From the NCBI GenBank assembly GCA_016794425.1, contig JAEUHR010000023.1, positions 186,001 to 250,000 of the forward strand: a stretch of 64,000 nt of DNA, written 5' to 3'. The notes under the pieces are model-generated. The model was not told the origin of the DNA. It searched no databases and saw nothing but the letters and a program-made list of their open reading frames with translations. How positions within the stretch are numbered: the stretch's first letter is position 1; the number at the start of each line of letters is the position of its first letter. Of the stretch, positions 9,081 to 24,712 are shown piece after piece. This DNA comes from Planctomycetota bacterium (GTDB lineage: Bacteria; Planctomycetota; UBA1135; UBA2386). Position numbers and translations under genes: made by a program.

Positions 9081-9686
9081 TCACGGCACCACGAACTCGG
9101 CCAGTGTCGCGGCCGACGCCGACGGCGACAGCGCGTAGAGCACGAACTCACCCAGTTCGCGGCGCGCGAGCTCGAATCGGCTGTCGGCGGGCAGCCGCGG
9201 CCGCGGGTCCTCGGCGCGCGGCAGCACGTAGACGCAGACCGGCGTGTCGTCGGTGCGTGCCAGCAACGCCATGCAGCGGCCGGTCGGCAGCGGCCCGCAG
9301 TAGCAGCCGAGCAGGCGCACCGACGCCGGTTCGAGGTCGAGCTGCGCCGCGAACCGCTGTTCGCACGCCTGCCGCAGGTCGAGGTCCGGTTCGCAGCAGG
9401 ATCCCCCACCGAAGCCGTCGGCGACCGCGTGTTCGTAGGCCGCGATCCACATCGCGCCGAGCGTTTCGCCGACCGGCTCGCCGGTGCCGCGCGCTGCCGG
9501 CCGCCACCACCAGGCGACGGCCAGCAGCAACACGGCCGCCGCGGACACGAGCCACGGCCAGGGCCGGCGCATCGGTGCCGCGGCGGCTGCCCGCGCGGCG
9601 ATCGCGGCGAAGTCGGCCGCCGGCGGCGGCGCGAACGCGCGGCGCAGCGCGCCGTCGACGTCGTGGTCGGCGAGGGGGTCGGTCAT
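9081..9686 (-). CDS. membrane-anchored putative anti-sigma factor with cysteine-rich outer domain
   Basis: A 201-residue protein whose start codon overlaps the stop of the upstream ECF sigma gene by 4 nt (ATGA), the usual layout of a sigma/anti-sigma pair. Residues 1-42 are predicted cytoplasmic; one helix, PWLVSAAAVLLLAVAWWW, spans about 44-61. The rest would be outside the cytoplasm and contains seven cysteines (97, 98, 108, 128, 130, 138, 151), six of them in two tight groups, SCC...AC and CYC...RC. The classical zinc anti-sigma motif H-x3-C-x2-C is absent from the short cytoplasmic part. The anti-sigma role is inferred from position and topology. Confidence 0.7.
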   Translation of the reverse strand: MTDPLADHDVDGALRRAFAPPPAADFAAIAARAAAAAPMRRPWPWLVSAAAVLLLAVAWWWRPAARGTGEPVGETLGAMWIAAYEHAVADGFGGGSCCEPDLDLRQACEQRFAAQLDLEPASVRLLGCYCGPLPTGRCMALLARTDDTPVCVYVLPRAEDPRPRLPADSRFELARRELGEFVLYALSPSASAATLAEFVVP

Positions 9687-10222
9687 CGCGGTATCCGGAC
9701 GGGTTCGGGTGCGGTGGCTGGAGCCAACGTGGTCCGCAGCGCCGCACGCGCGCGGCGGACGTGGCTGGCGACGGTGTTCTCGGGCAGATCGAGCATCGTG
9801 GCGATCTCGGCGAACGTGTGCTCCTGGATCACGTGCAGCAACAGACATGCGCGCGCCGTCTCACCGAGGTCGAGCAGCCCACGCGCGAGCGCGTCGTCGA
9901 GCCCGCCGCGATCGGCGTCGAACGGCCAGGCGGCCGGCTGCCGCACGGCCGCCGTGCGCCGATCGAGGTCGGCGACGGCAGTCGGACGACGGCGGCGCCG
10001 CCAATTCGCCCCCTGGTGGCGCGCGATCTGCGACAGCCAGGCCCGCAGGTCGGTGCCCGGCACGAACGAGTCGCGGCGCTGCCACGCGACGCGGGCAGTC
10101 TCCTGCACCAGGTCGGCCGCGTCCTCGCGACCGACCCACGCCGCCGCGAGCACCCACAGCGATCGACCGTGTTCGGCGAACGCACGTTGGAACTCGTCGG
10201 CGCCGAGGGCAGGAGCCGCCAT
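9683..10222 (-). CDS. ECF-type RNA polymerase sigma factor
   Basis: A group IV sigma factor of 179 residues from the ATG at 10222; a GTG two codons earlier is an alternative. Region 2 is recognisable in DAADLVQETARVAWQRR (core-binding and -10 recognition helix) and region 4 in HTFAEIATMLDLPENTVASHVRRARAAL (helix-turn-helix for the -35). The linker is alanine/proline/arginine-rich. It lies 18 nt after a small cysteine-rich protein gene and overlaps the putative anti-sigma gene by 4 nt, so the three genes form one unit. The signal sensed is unknown; the cysteines in both partners suggest a metal or redox cue. Confidence 0.88.
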   Translation of the reverse strand: MAAPALGADEFQRAFAEHGRSLWVLAAAWVGREDAADLVQETARVAWQRRDSFVPGTDLRAWLSQIARHQGANWRRRRRPTAVADLDRRTAAVRQPAAWPFDADRGGLDDALARGLLDLGETARACLLLHVIQEHTFAEIATMLDLPENTVASHVRRARAALRTTLAPATAPEPVRIPR

Positions 10223-10240
10223 GCGCACAGTGTCCCGCGC

Positions 10241-10468
10241 TCAGCAGCCGCCGCAACCCTTCGGCGGGCAGCAGCCCGGCGCCGGCGTCGGCACCGTGCA
10301 GCACCCGGCATCGCAGCAGTCCGGCGGGCAGCAGTCGGGCGGGCAGACCGGCCCGTCGCACGGGCAGCAGCAACAGGCGCCCGGGCCTTGGGCCGGCGCG
10401 CAGGCCGAACCCGGACCGACCGGCAGGCAGCAGAACAGGGTGAAACAGACGCTCCAGAACGTGCTCAT
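10241..10468 (-). CDS. 75-residue cysteine-rich protein
   Basis: The reading frame encodes only 75 residues, of which 20 are cysteine (27%), most in pairs and often next to proline: the segments ACCCCPC, CPPDCCPPDCC, DAGCC and PGCCPPKGC. The N-terminus, MSTFWSVCFTLFCCLPVG, is hydrophobic enough to be a short signal or membrane anchor. The sole plausible in-frame start is the ATG at 10468. It precedes the ECF sigma gene by 18 nt on the same strand and is probably the first gene of that operon. Metallothionein-like metal binding or a disulfide-rich secreted peptide are both possible; I know no named family for it. Confidence 0.6.
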   Translation of the reverse strand: MSTFWSVCFTLFCCLPVGPGSACAPAQGPGACCCCPCDGPVCPPDCCPPDCCDAGCCTVPTPAPGCCPPKGCGGC

Positions 10469-10603
10469 GCCCCCTGATGTCGCGTTGGCCTTCGATCCGT
10501 GCAGCCGGGCCCCGAAGTCCGCCCGCCCGTTGGCATCGCGGGCGCGGCCGCCGGAACGCCGATTTCGCGAATAGCATCGGCGGTTGCCGACGACCTGAGC
10601 ACC

Positions 10604-11131
10604 GTGGCCACCCCGCCCCCCGACCTCGCGCCGGCGCCGCCGGCGTCCGCCGCACGGCCCGACCTGACGGACCACGCTACCGGTGTGCGGCGCTACCTGC
10701 GGGCGCTCGGCGCCACCGCCGATGAAGCCGACGAGCTGTTGCAGGAGACGCTGCTGGTCGCGTGCCGCGCGGCCGTGCCGGTCGCGCCCGCGGCGGCGCG
10801 TGCGTTCCTGCGCGGCGTGGCGCGCAACCACTGGCTGCGCACGCGGCGCTGGTGGCGCCGGCGGCGCGAGCGCGAGGTCGCGCTGGCAGTCGACCAGCTG
10901 TGGCTCGCGACCGCCGAGGACGACGACGGCGAAGCGCTGCTGGCGGCGCTGCGCGAGTGCCTCGGTGGCCTCGCGGCGCGCACGCGCACGGCGCTCGAAC
11001 TGCACTACCACGACGGGCTCGGCTGGACACAGGTCTCGACCCGCCTCGGCCTGCGCCCGAACGGCACCAAGACGCTGGTCCAGCGCGCCCGCGAAGCCCT
11101 GCGGAACTGCATCGAACGGAGACTGCGATGA
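10604..11131 (+). CDS. ECF-type RNA polymerase sigma factor
   Basis: A second ECF sigma factor, divergent from the cysteine-rich/sigma operon. Region 2 is seen in VRRYLRALGATADEADELLQ with ETLLVACR, and region 4 in ALELHYHDGLGWTQVSTRLG followed by NGTKTLVQRAREAL. I placed the start at GTG 10604 (175 residues), because the sequence upstream of it is low-complexity; a GTG at 10499 would add 35 residues, and neither has a good ribosome-binding site. Its stop overlaps the start of the LRR membrane protein gene (ATGA), making that protein the likely regulator or signal receptor for this sigma factor. Confidence 0.85.
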   Translation: MATPPPDLAPAPPASAARPDLTDHATGVRRYLRALGATADEADELLQETLLVACRAAVPVAPAAARAFLRGVARNHWLRTRRWWRRRREREVALAVDQLWLATAEDDDGEALLAALRECLGGLAARTRTALELHYHDGLGWTQVSTRLGLRPNGTKTLVQRAREALRNCIERRLR

Positions 11132-12756
11132 CGACGATGGACATGCTGGCGATCGCCCGCGAACGGCAACTCGACTGGCTGCTCGACGAAGTGCTGGGTG
11201 GCGGCACGGCCGCACGCCGCGCGGCGCACCCGTGGCTGGCGGCGGCGATCGTGCTGCTCGGCCTCGCCGCGGCGATCGGCACCGCTCTGCTGCGGCGCGA
11301 CGGCGCCGCCGAACCCGCGCCGCTGCAAGAGCCGCCGGCGAACGAATGGCACGAGTGCCACGGCCCGCAGGGAGTGGCGGCCGTGCCCGACGACGTGGTG
11401 CAGCTGCGCTGCTTCGACTTCGATGACGATGCGATCGCCGCGCTGGCGCGGTGCCAGCGCCTCACGCACCTCGATCTGTCGGGCATGGACGTCAACGAGA
11501 AGGGCTACTCGGTGTCGCTGAAGATCACCGACCGCGGTGTCGAGCACCTCGGCCAGCTGACCAGCCTGCGCTGGCTGTCGCTGGCCCAGTGCCACGAGAT
11601 GAAGGGCGAAGGCCTCGCGGCGCTCGAGGCACTGCCGCTGCTCGAACACCTCGACCTGACCTACAGCGGCGTCGAGTCCCCGGCGGTGGAACGGCTCGCG
11701 CGGCTGCCGAGCCTGCGTTCGCTGTCGCTGTCACACTGCATGGACTTCCACGGCCGCTCGCTGGCCGAGGTCGCGAAGATCCCGGGCCTGCAGCGGCTCG
11801 AACTGCGCGCCTGCACGACCGTGGCGGCGGCCGACGCGCTGCACCTGACGCGGCTCACGCACCTGCGCCACCTGGACCTGCGCGATTGCCAGGGTCGGTT
11901 CCGCGGCCAGCGCGGCGACTTCTTCATGGGCGGTGCAGGGCGCGGCGACGTGCCGCCGCCGCCGGTCGAGGACGGCGTCGGCATCACCGACGCGGTCGTC
12001 GCCGCGTTCGCGGGCGCGAAGCTCGAGACGCTGCTGCTGGGCGGCAGCGAGTCGCTCACCGATGCGATCGGACCCGTGCTCGCCGGCATGACGACGCTGC
12101 GCATGCTCGATCTGTCGGCCCTGCCGCGCACGACCGACGCGCTGCTGCCGCAGCTGCCGGGCGGCCTCACGTCGCTGAGGCTCGATCGCAACCCGCAGTT
12201 CACCCTCGCGGGTCTGCGTCGGTTGCCCGCGCTGCCGGGACTGCGGGAACTCGGCCTGGCGGCGATGGCGGAACTCGGCGACGACGGCGTCGCCGCGCTG
12301 CTGGCGGACCGACGGCTCGAGCGCTTCGCGTTCGGCGGCACGCGCGAAGCGGGCAAGGACGGCGAAGTGGTGCGGCGGCCGATCACCGAGTCGATCGCCG
12401 CCGCGATCGCTGCACAACCCGACCTGCGTCACCTCGAGCTACGGCATGCGGAACTCGACCGCCGTGCCGCGGCGCGGCTCGCGGCGCTGCCGCGGCTCGA
12501 GACGCTGGACCTGACGTCGAGCTCCTTGGCCGCCGGTGCAATCGCCGAGTTCGCGGCGGCCCCGGCGCTACGGGAGCTCGACCTGACGTGGGCCAAAGGC
12601 CTCGCCGTGGCCGACGTCGCGCGGGCGGCGCCGCAGTTGCGGCAGCTCCAGCTCTACGGCACCGAGCTCGACCAGCGCGCGGTGCAGGATGGCCTCGCGC
12701 AGCGTCATGGCCTGGTCGTCACGCTGCCGCAGGGCCAGCGCCACCGCGTGCCGTGA
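11128..12756 (+). CDS. transmembrane leucine-rich-repeat protein, putative anti-sigma/sensor
   Basis: A 542-residue protein with a short cytoplasmic N-terminus (MTTMDMLAIARERQLDWLLD), one membrane helix at about 36-54 (WLAAAIVLLGLAAAIGTAL), and a long outer part made of leucine-rich repeats from about residue 95 to 530. Typical repeat wording is LTHLDLSGMDV, LRWLSLAQCHE, LEHLDLTYSGV and LRHLDLRDCQG, the 24-28 residue cysteine/leucine pattern of bacterial LRRs. Because its start overlaps the sigma stop, and topology matches an anti-sigma factor, it is proposed to hold the sigma factor at the membrane and sense a surface ligand. That role is inference. Its last 38 nt overlap the convergent glycosyltransferase remnant. 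Confidence 0.82.
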   Translation: MTTMDMLAIARERQLDWLLDEVLGGGTAARRAAHPWLAAAIVLLGLAAAIGTALLRRDGAAEPAPLQEPPANEWHECHGPQGVAAVPDDVVQLRCFDFDDDAIAALARCQRLTHLDLSGMDVNEKGYSVSLKITDRGVEHLGQLTSLRWLSLAQCHEMKGEGLAALEALPLLEHLDLTYSGVESPAVERLARLPSLRSLSLSHCMDFHGRSLAEVAKIPGLQRLELRACTTVAAADALHLTRLTHLRHLDLRDCQGRFRGQRGDFFMGGAGRGDVPPPPVEDGVGITDAVVAAFAGAKLETLLLGGSESLTDAIGPVLAGMTTLRMLDLSALPRTTDALLPQLPGGLTSLRLDRNPQFTLAGLRRLPALPGLRELGLAAMAELGDDGVAALLADRRLERFAFGGTREAGKDGEVVRRPITESIAAAIAAQPDLRHLELRHAELDRRAAARLAALPRLETLDLTSSSLAAGAIAEFAAAPALRELDLTWAKGLAVADVARAAPQLRQLQLYGTELDQRAVQDGLAQRHGLVVTLPQGQRHRVP

Positions 12757-23300: not shown

Positions 23301-23756
23301 GCCGTTCGCGGCCGCGAGTCGATCGTGCGGCAGCAGTTCCGGCAGGATGCCGTACTTGGCCGGCGCGAACAGCGCGCTCTGCGCGCCCATGCCGACCAGC
23401 ACGACGAACGGCAGCCAGCCGGCCGGCGCAACGGCCAGCGCGATGGTGCCGAGCGCCATCAGCGCGACCTCGGCCAGCTTGGTCCACAGCACGAGGCGGC
23501 GCTTGCTGATGCGGTCGCCGAGCACCATCGCCGGCAGCGACACGAGCGCCAGCGGCAGCGTCAGCGCGACCATGCCGAGCGTCGCGAGGCGCTGCTTGCC
23601 GGCTTCGTCGCCGGTCGGCAGCGCCGCCCAGGCGAGCAGCACGGCCAGCATCTTGAACGCGTTGTCGTTGAACGCGCCGAGGAACTGGGCGACCAGCAGA
23701 CCGCCGATGCGCGGCGGCGGGACGGGCGACGGGGCGACCGGCGACGGGTGCGACAT
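20328..23756 (-). CDS. fused MFS transporter / 1-acylglycerophosphate acyltransferase / acyl-ACP synthetase (LplT-Aas type)
   Basis: A 1142-residue three-part protein. Residues about 15-415 form a twelve-helix MFS transporter (GGLLVAQFLGAFNDNAFKM, GDRISKRR). A PlsC acyltransferase follows, with the catalytic H-x4-D motif in NHVSFLDG near residue 444 and the FAEGEISR segment. The last 500 residues are an AMP-forming acyl-adenylating enzyme with the phosphate loop FSSGSTGEPKGVELTH near residue 784 and GYGCTECAP. This matches the LplT-Aas lysophospholipid flipping and re-acylation pathway, encoded as separate proteins in E. coli, and should act at the inner membrane to repair phosphatidylethanolamine. 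Start MSHPS chosen, since the upstream extension lacks features. Confidence 0.9.
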   Translation of the reverse strand: MSHPSPVAPSPVPPPRIGGLLVAQFLGAFNDNAFKMLAVLLAWAALPTGDEAGKQRLATLGMVALTLPLALVSLPAMVLGDRISKRRLVLWTKLAEVALMALGTIALAVAPAGWLPFVVLVGMGAQSALFAPAKYGILPELLPHDRLAAANGRLEAASFLAIILGTACAGPLLQLAGDCAWLAGLVLTVFALMGLVAAWFVPAVPASGAAEPFASVLGGAWRAIRGDRVLWLATIGATLFWTIASLLGQDVFVYGKQVLQFGDDIAGLPLAVLAIGTGAGAVLAGRLARGKVDSGQIPLGAIGLALGAAAMGLFAPGRVMTLVMMFGLGIASGFIVVPLNSLVQWRAPAARRGAVIALVNGLASLGILVGAFACSALAELGAASTDILLVAAIATAAATAWAVWLLPDALLRSVVLLLAHTFYRVRIVGAPHVPETGGALLVPNHVSFLDGLFLLAATDRPIRFVVEKHWYERPYLKPFLSALRAIPIAASGGPRVVLKALRDAGAALDQGELVCLFAEGEISRMGSTLPFRRGMERIVKGRAVPIVAVHLDRVYGGLLSARQGRVQWLPTRVPCPVTVSFGEPVASGVAPAEVRRRVDELGEAAWQLRATELQPLHRAFVRSARQAPWRRCLADTQGRHLSRLGALAAAVVLARRLRRPLAGQQSVGLLLPPSIGGALAAIATSLAGRTAVPLNYTIGAASLASCVRQAGLRTVLSSRAFLERLPVALPDGVQLLVLEDVLASVGRGERLAAALRALLWPVRALERACGAARRIVRDDVATVIFSSGSTGEPKGVELTHGNVQANCDAVAQVIPLDPTDRLVGVLPLFHSFGNMALWYAVQQGAGIVFHPNPLDAAAVGEMTATHRATILLATPTFLQLYLRRCEPGQLGSLRVVLTGAEKLTDALADAFADRFGIRPIQGYGCTECAPVVATSTPGYRAAGFYQAGSRRGAVGRPLPGVSVRIVDPETRAPLPVGTAGLVLVRGANVMRGYLGRPDLTAAAMHDGCYVTGDIGRLDEEGFLFLTDRLSRFSKIGGEMVPHGTVEQHLQECCGRDERAFAVCGVPDPKKGERLMVVTTLAAEAIPDVLRQLSARGLPPLFVPRADQFVPVAALPLLGTGKLDLRAVKELCLAAAATTMRGE

Positions 23757-23781
23757 GGCAGCAGTATCGCCAGCAAGGTCG

Positions 23782-23795
23782 TTCCATCCGCGGAA
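23782..23795. promoter_or_regulatory. candidate LysR-type operator (T-N11-A dyad)
   Basis: In the 71-nt gap between the divergent acyltransferase-fusion and LysR genes, TTCCATCCGCGGAA has TTCC/GGAA arms and fits the T-N11-A pattern of LysR sites. A second TTCC half-site follows at 23809-23812. The position allows control of both divergent genes. Confidence 0.4.
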
Positions 23796-23827
23796 GTTCT
23801 GCTGCACGTTCCGATAAGCTGGGCGAC

Positions 23828-24712
23828 ATGATCGACCTGCACCGCCTGGCGGGTTTCCACCTGGTCGCGACCCAGGGCGGCTACGCCCGCGCCGCCCGCG
23901 CCGCGCCGTACCCGATCACGCAGCCGGCGCTGCACCAGCAGGTCCGCAAGCTCGAACAGGAGGTCGGCCTGCAGCTGCTCGAACGCGTCGGCAAGGACCA
24001 GATGCGGCCGACGCCGGCCGGCGCCCATCTGCTGGCGTTCGTAGGCCCGTTCCTGCGCGACCTGCCGCACGTGGTGCAGAGCTTGCGCACCGGCGAGTTC
24101 GACGGTCGGCTGTCGATCCACGCCGAATCGCTGCTGATCCGCCAGCTGCTGCCCGACTGGCTGCGGGCGTTCCGGCGCCGGCGGCCGGCCGCCGAACTGC
24201 ACCTGCAGGAGCTGATCCGCGTCGACGCCGACCTGCTGCGCAGCGGCCGCGCCGACGCGCTGGTCGCGCACCTGCCCGAGGTGCCCGCCGACGTCGCGAC
24301 GCAGGTCGTCGCCACGGTGTGGGCCTGCCTCGTGGTGCCGCGCGAGCACGCGCCGGCCCGCGGCCGGCCGGCGCTGCGCGACCTCGCCGCGCTGCCGTTC
24401 CTCGGCTACCCGGTCGGCACGCGCCACCACGCGCTGCAGCTGCAGGCGCTGGTCCAGCACGACGTCACGCCGGGCACGACGATCGCGCTCGACACCGCCG
24501 ACGCGATCCTCGGTTTCGTCGAATCGGGCCTCGGCTGGTCGCTGGTGCCGAGCCTTGACCCCGACGGACCGAAAGGCCGCCGGCTGGCGGCCTACCCGTG
24601 GGGCCGACCGCCGGTCACGTTCCCGATCGTGCTGGCCTGGCGCCGCGACGCACCCGCGAACCCGATGCTCGAGGCGCTGCGGGCGACGGCGCCGCGGCCG
24701 GACCCGCGCTGA
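23828..24712 (+). CDS. LysR-family transcriptional regulator
   Basis: A 294-residue regulator with the usual N-terminal winged helix-turn-helix (LHRLAGFHLVATQGGYARAA, ITQPALHQQVRKLEQEVGLQLLERV; residues about 4-60) and a C-terminal periplasmic-binding-protein-like effector domain. The end of the domain has GFVESGLGWSLVP, the conserved co-inducer-pocket wording of the family. It is divergent from the LplT/PlsC/Aas fusion gene, 71 nt away, and may control it. The effector is unknown; a lysophospholipid or fatty-acid signal would make sense but is not shown by the sequence. Confidence 0.9.
   Translation: MIDLHRLAGFHLVATQGGYARAARAAPYPITQPALHQQVRKLEQEVGLQLLERVGKDQMRPTPAGAHLLAFVGPFLRDLPHVVQSLRTGEFDGRLSIHAESLLIRQLLPDWLRAFRRRRPAAELHLQELIRVDADLLRSGRADALVAHLPEVPADVATQVVATVWACLVVPREHAPARGRPALRDLAALPFLGYPVGTRHHALQLQALVQHDVTPGTTIALDTADAILGFVESGLGWSLVPSLDPDGPKGRRLAAYPWGRPPVTFPIVLAWRRDAPANPMLEALRATAPRPDPR

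Follow-up and report, generated by a model that had tools for sequence, protein, structure and literature searches.

Three co-directional genes of a Planctomycetota genome, coding for a cysteine-rich micro-protein, an ECF sigma factor and a single-span membrane protein, were found to be conserved as a unit. The function preferred for this unit, with a confidence somewhat better than even, is that of an autoregulated metal or thiol buffer of the cell envelope, run by a self-contained ECF module. The membrane protein would be an anti-sigma factor keeping the sigma factor at the membrane, and its outer cysteines (CC-x9-C and GCYCG) would react with a thiophilic signal, either a soft metal (copper, cadmium, mercury) or an oxidant. 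This reaction would free the sigma factor to transcribe its own operon, and the exported cysteine-rich protein would then bind the signal through its Cys-Cys pairs, shutting off the response and closing the loop. The buffer reading is supported by the conservation of the operon, purifying selection, an operon-specific promoter, export-like N-termini and extra sensor cysteines, as well as by Cys-Cys pairs in excess of expectation and varying Cys totals, and it has precedents in Caulobacter SigF-NrsF and in the bufferins linked to sigma/NrsF genes. Counting against it, no metal transporter or redox gene was identified among the neighbours of the operon.

Gene layout, conservation and coding status

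The window, i.e., the whole 64-kb stretch of DNA analysed, carries the three genes in a region of about 74% GC:

10468-10241 (-), cysteine-rich micro-protein gene, 75 aa with 20 Cys (26.7%) and 15 Pro
10397..10468 (-), N-terminal hydrophobic, export-signal-like segment of the micro-protein (residues 1-24), from hydropathy
10222-9683 (-), ECF sigma factor gene, 179 aa, regions 2 and 4 only
9686-9081 (-), membrane protein gene, probable anti-sigma factor, 201 aa, its start overlapping the sigma stop

The micro-protein gene ends 18 nt before the sigma ATG (10222), and the sigma stop and the membrane-protein start share 4 nt (ATGA). The 179-residue protein is an ECF sigma factor with regions 2 and 4 and without region 1 or 3, Pfam Sigma70_r2 and Sigma70_r4_2 both scoring above cut-off. 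A preliminary description of this DNA had reported a 75-residue frame with 20 cysteines, an ECF sigma gene 18 nt downstream and, overlapping the latter by 4 nt, a single-helix membrane protein with seven cysteines in its outer domain and no zinc anti-sigma motif. All of these features were confirmed; the cytoplasmic domain of the membrane protein contains no HxxxCxxC (ZAS) motif, the first cysteine of the protein being residue 97.

When used as sole query in a direct protein search, the micro-protein retrieved no relatives above noise, and since its composition is too biased for searching, relatives were traced via the neighbouring genes. Strong relatives of the membrane protein were found in 18 of the 34 genomes of the Planctomycetota family, the window's own genome included, each directly behind a sigma-factor homologue (18/18 operons). 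A Cys-rich frame lies just upstream of the sigma gene at all 18 family loci, ending 3-38 nt ahead of it where measured. Two more operons, L165 and L166, with clearly signal-like N-termini, were found in other families of the order. The preliminary description had proposed checking whether the micro-protein keeps its place beside an ECF sigma gene, and had taken homologues without the frame as grounds for doubting it; the neighbourhood was found to be conserved in the 18 family operons and in the two elsewhere in the order, and the search for frameless homologues returned none within the family. A profile search of the genome collection with a 7-row alignment gave matches from Planctomycetota or bacterial metagenome-assembled genomes exclusively. 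The distribution of the operon is patchy, and it is missing, for example, in a genome of the same genus (G012). Its neighbours differ between genomes, which argues that the operon is self-contained.

The micro-protein frame stays open far upstream (406 codons), and in a region of such GC content an open frame alone is no evidence of coding; a frame left open by chance in GC-rich DNA between genes would look the same in this respect. The cysteine content, however, is not due to chance. No other stop-free stretch of 75 codons in the six frames of the whole window contains more than 15 Cys, and none of 2000 dinucleotide shuffles of the segment reached 20 Cys, the maximum being 13. The pN/pS values of the micro-protein gene were 0.23-0.57 in six pairs, close to those of the sigma gene in the identical pairs (0.18-0.55). 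Three pairs were examined by codon position, and in these the substitutions clustered at third positions, with 17/17, 17/17 and 18/20 cysteines kept. Judged by its conservation and by purifying selection close to that on the sigma gene, the 75-residue frame is a real protein-coding gene. The chance-frame explanation, contradicted by the conserved frame, position, cysteines, N-terminus and promoter, was rejected on the basis of the Cys-count shuffles, pN/pS and conservation, and its probability is considered negligible.

The micro-protein homologues are 62-227 aa long and are of two types. The short type has CCPPxCC-like blocks and a C-terminal CC/CGxGCG cluster, and the long type has Lys/Ala-rich repeats with Cys clusters (L039, L042, L043, L045 and L047). 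All 18 micro-protein N-termini tested by hydropathy were hydrophobic, the resemblance to a signal peptide being clearest in the relatives. Several, including that of the window's species, have no basic residue, so that the N-terminus of the window's micro-protein possibly anchors it in the membrane or works poorly as a signal. Export of the micro-protein is probable, and any buffering would then occur in the envelope. Vicinal Cys-Cys pairs exceed the expectation from shuffled composition in nearly all members, Cys totals are often odd, and Cys number and spacing vary; the variation and the odd totals would be less expected of a fixed disulfide fold than of metal or thiol chemistry. The AlphaFold2 model of the micro-protein was poor (pLDDT 52), with no confident fold. 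The micro-protein most probably acts outside the cytoplasm, as a sponge for toxic metals or reactive thiol chemistry.

No named family had been known to the preliminary description, and none in Pfam or NCBIfam was found to fit the micro-protein or its relatives, except for a weak compositional match of one relative to high-sulfur keratin. A literature search found no paper on secreted Cys-rich small proteins of Planctomycetes. As far as the literature and the family libraries show, the operon and the micro-protein family are apparently undescribed. The keratin match bears on another explanation: crosslinked by disulfides, the Cys-rich protein would serve as a structural part of the envelope, produced when the envelope is under stress, and the ECF system would detect damage to the envelope. 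The walls of some planctomycetes have been described as proteinaceous and cystine-rich, and a Cys/Pro-rich, export-like protein with repeats would suit such a role. Nevertheless, the micro-protein is very small, odd Cys totals are common, and an operon of such patchy occurrence, lacking even in a member of the same genus, is unlike a core wall protein; a structural role is considered improbable.

Predicted promoter and regulon

A candidate promoter was located ahead of the micro-protein gene:

10474..10503 (-), predicted operon promoter, TGCACG-N15-CGACATCAG
10498-10503 (-), -35-like element TGCACG, followed by a 15-nt spacer
10477-10482 (-), -10-like element CGACAT, followed by CAG, with 8 nt between its last base and the micro-protein ATG

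The motif TGCA(C/A)G-N15-NNACATNNG was found upstream of the micro-protein in 19 of the 20 operons, always with a spacer of 15 nt, the sole exception being L165. Its position and conservation suggest that it is recognised by the operon's own sigma factor. In the window's own genome, the operon site is the only match to TGCACG-N15-CGACATCAG with fewer than two mismatches, and the only perfect one. Across the 34 genomes of the family there are ten perfect matches, all ten of them at this operon. Since perfect matches are confined to the operon, the most economical interpretation has the sigma factor probably serving just its own operon, and weaker matches elsewhere in the genome may be further targets. 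A regulon beyond the operon was rejected on the count of off-operon sites with one mismatch in the 34 genomes (11), which is near that of a reversed-pattern control (7). In 17 of the 19 operons, 8-33 nt separate the last base of the -10-like hexamer from the start codon, against 70 and 76 nt in the other two; at such short distances, leaderless transcripts or very short leaders are probable for many of the operons. Here an ECF sigma factor seems to have one operon as its entire regulon, with a product open to direct testing. Because the promoter layout is fixed, the target of this otherwise uncharacterised planctomycete sigma factor can be predicted from the sequence.

A site with two mismatches at 23803-23832, preceding a LysR-type gene, was also discarded, as what the relatives of this gene have in common is AAGCT immediately ahead of the start instead of the ECF motif. 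In the LysR-type gene (start at 23828) and its relatives, a conserved (G)ATAAGCT-like element lies only a few nucleotides upstream of the start codon (window 23747-23840), suggesting a leaderless transcript and a different promoter type.

The membrane protein and its outer cysteines

The following parts were assigned to the membrane protein:

9582..9677 (-), cytoplasmic segment with two predicted helices (residues 4-35), from AlphaFold2 and the NCBIfam anti-sigma model
9504..9560 (-), single predicted membrane helix (residues 43-61), from AlphaFold2
9363..9398 (-), Cys-Cys...Cys motif CC-x9-C (C97, C98, C108), outer domain, alignment A5
9294..9308 (-), GCYCG motif (residues 127-131), outer domain

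The AlphaFold2 model, obtained with 15 sequences, was confident (mean pLDDT 85, pTM 0.64), with helices at residues 4-17 and 23-35, a membrane helix at 43-61 and an outer alpha/beta domain thereafter. The class I (ASDI) anti-sigma factors RseA, RsiW and RskA share with it a gene coupled downstream of an ECF sigma gene, a cytoplasmic N-terminus, one membrane helix and an outer sensor domain. In that class, helices 1-3 of the cytoplasmic domain bind sigma region 4 and helix 4 binds region 2 (PMC7406223). The coupled downstream gene and the one predicted span were found here as well, whereas the four-helix cytoplasmic domain was not. The cytoplasmic part has only some 42 residues with two predicted helices, the front helices that grip sigma region 4 being missing; the zinc motif is absent too, and a Cys-Cys...Cys motif is present in the outer domain instead. 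Similarly, the micro-protein-linked relatives matched an NCBIfam anti-sigma model weakly and only from about position 50 on, whereas full-length cousins without the micro-protein (L129, L130 and L150) matched it from position 3-8. L149, which has no micro-protein, is also short, so the shortening is not exclusive to the micro-protein operons. From these models, the best reading of the membrane protein, proposed as the sensor in the preliminary description, is an anti-sigma factor that has kept only the final part of the class-I sigma-binding domain. Against the anti-sigma part of the buffer reading, the modelled cytoplasmic part is too short for a complete class-I domain, and the shortened domain raises the question of whether contacts of the helix-4 type are enough to hold a sigma factor.

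In a Foldseek search with the outer domain, RseB/MucB ranked on top without reaching significance (E 0.07-0.17), and a profile search against PDB sequences gave nothing significant. Pfam DUF3379 matched weakly in 3 of 18 membrane-protein relatives, and no paper on DUF3379 together with sigma factors was found in a literature search. Planctomycetota anti-sigma factors with the same C-terminal outer domain (RRELGxLVLYE) were found at L128-L131, L171, L173 and L174; where compared, their cytoplasmic domains are longer and a Cys-rich partner is lacking. The membrane-protein gene at L126:4846-5139 contains masked bases in one copy, and the other copy (L048) reads through.

All seven cysteines of the membrane protein (C97, C98, C108, C128, C130, C138 and C151) are in the predicted outer domain. 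In alignment A5, C108 is invariant and C97 almost invariant among the 19 micro-protein-linked sequences, and no cysteine occupies position 108 in the micro-protein-less relatives read (L128-L131, L149, L150, L171, L173 and L174). The five operons with the long Lys/Ala-repeat micro-protein lack GCYCG. These five adjoin one another on the tree, so that the link between GCYCG loss and the long repeats may be a single event; the covariation is real in the table and was rejected as an independent correlation on the tree. As shared ancestry could explain both, the C108 and GCYCG correlations with the micro-protein are only suggestive, and the extra outer cysteines may reflect shared ancestry rather than function.

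The same correlations are the basis of the main rival to the buffer reading, which is not exclusive with it. The Cys-rich protein would be mainly a regulator, docking outside the cytoplasm on the cysteine motif of the anti-sigma factor through metal bridges or mixed disulfides and gating sigma release, a role comparable to that of RseB on RseA. The restriction of the sensor's C108 to micro-protein operons, the loss of GCYCG with the long-repeat type and promoter evidence that indicates no target beyond the operon would all suit direct gating. Nevertheless, the GCYCG correlation may go back to one or few events, so many cysteines and such rapidly changing repeats are more buffer-like than expected of a specific ligand, and the outer domain resembles RseB/MucB without statistical significance (E 0.07 or worse). 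A mainly regulatory role is accordingly rated as rather unlikely. A combination of both functions is put forward tentatively, with a slightly higher though still low confidence: the hypervariable, exported Cys-Cys-repeat protein would be the sole product of the ECF regulon and also the direct partner of the sensor, signalling its metal or redox status via CC...C to a minimal anti-sigma factor, in a closed, one-operon homeostatic loop of an undescribed three-part system.

Comparison with known systems and genomic surroundings

The preliminary description had taken the micro-protein as effector or buffer, the sigma factor as output and the membrane protein as sensor. These roles are partly supported, fitting the conserved operon, the operon-specific promoter and the extra cysteines that the sensor was found to have only alongside the micro-protein. 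What changed is that the sensor is now best taken for an anti-sigma factor whose sigma-binding domain is shortened, and that the buffer, whose effector role fits, is placed in the envelope, export being probable from hydropathy.

The closest parallels are the SigF-NrsF system of Caulobacter crescentus and the Buf1 clusters, which like the operon as read here combine an ECF sigma factor, a membrane negative regulator with non-cytoplasmic cysteines and a small regulon (PMC3511200, PMC12452194). They also include small Cys-containing proteins with Sec signal peptides and respond to copper or heavy metals. Two conserved periplasmic-side cysteines of NrsF matter for keeping the chromium/cadmium-induced regulon basal (PMC3511200), and copper-chelating bufferins are encoded in clusters with sigma/NrsF genes (PMC12452194). 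In contrast to Buf1, the micro-protein belongs to an unrelated family, has far more cysteines, which occur in Cys-Cys pairs, and is apparently unmodified; DUF2282, the bufferin-1 precursor family, gave no Pfam or NCBIfam match in the window's micro-protein or its relatives. The operon also lacks the adjacent MNIO and the partner protein of the Buf1 clusters and differs in gene order, and its anti-sigma factor has one span and an outer domain, whereas NrsF has six spans. In Cupriavidus metallidurans, gigPABT with rpoQ-rsqA is induced by copper and gold, with a proposed role in periplasmic stress protection (PMC10304878). Set side by side without sequence comparison, both loci have small-protein genes beside an ECF sigma factor and a predicted membrane anti-sigma factor; unlike the operon, the Gig locus is divergently arranged and has further genes, and control of gig by RpoQ is unproven (PMC10304878). 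With a different peptide, a different anti-sigma factor and no MNIO, the operon is not a member of the SigF-NrsF, bufferin or Gig families. Metallothioneins are likewise small and very Cys-rich with variable spacing, but the micro-protein has an export-like N-terminus and is co-operonic with an ECF sigma factor, and it matched no metallothionein family in Pfam or NCBIfam. If the buffer reading is true, bacteria outside Pseudomonadota evolved an ECF-controlled exported cysteine sponge, apparently independently of bufferins.

The bufferin parallel also leads to the suggestion that the micro-protein is a new kind of MNIO-modified, bufferin-like RiPP, with the enzyme encoded elsewhere in the genome. 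Bufferins likewise have export signals and ECF links, and the window's own genome has two MNIO (PF05114) genes with Cys-repeat precursors of their own. However, these are on another contig or about 178 kb away and not in the operon cluster, there is no MNIO near the operon in the window, and the micro-protein matches no described precursor family. Moreover, 9 of the 18 operon-bearing family genomes, which are incomplete, gave no MNIO match, and on this ground the micro-protein is unlikely to need such an enzyme. The MNIO explanation is consequently held to be very improbable. The precursors beside the two MNIO genes, with bufferin-like CKGQGGC repeats, lie in two separate clusters at L210:2427-2790 (+) and L211:3749-4165 (-).

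Divergent from the operon, 10499-12756 (+) is occupied by a second ECF sigma gene, whose start (about 10499-10535) is uncertain, and behind it by a gene for a leucine-rich-repeat membrane protein, with overlapping start and stop. This pair was also found beside the operon in L184, L186 and L198, and is common to four genomes only.
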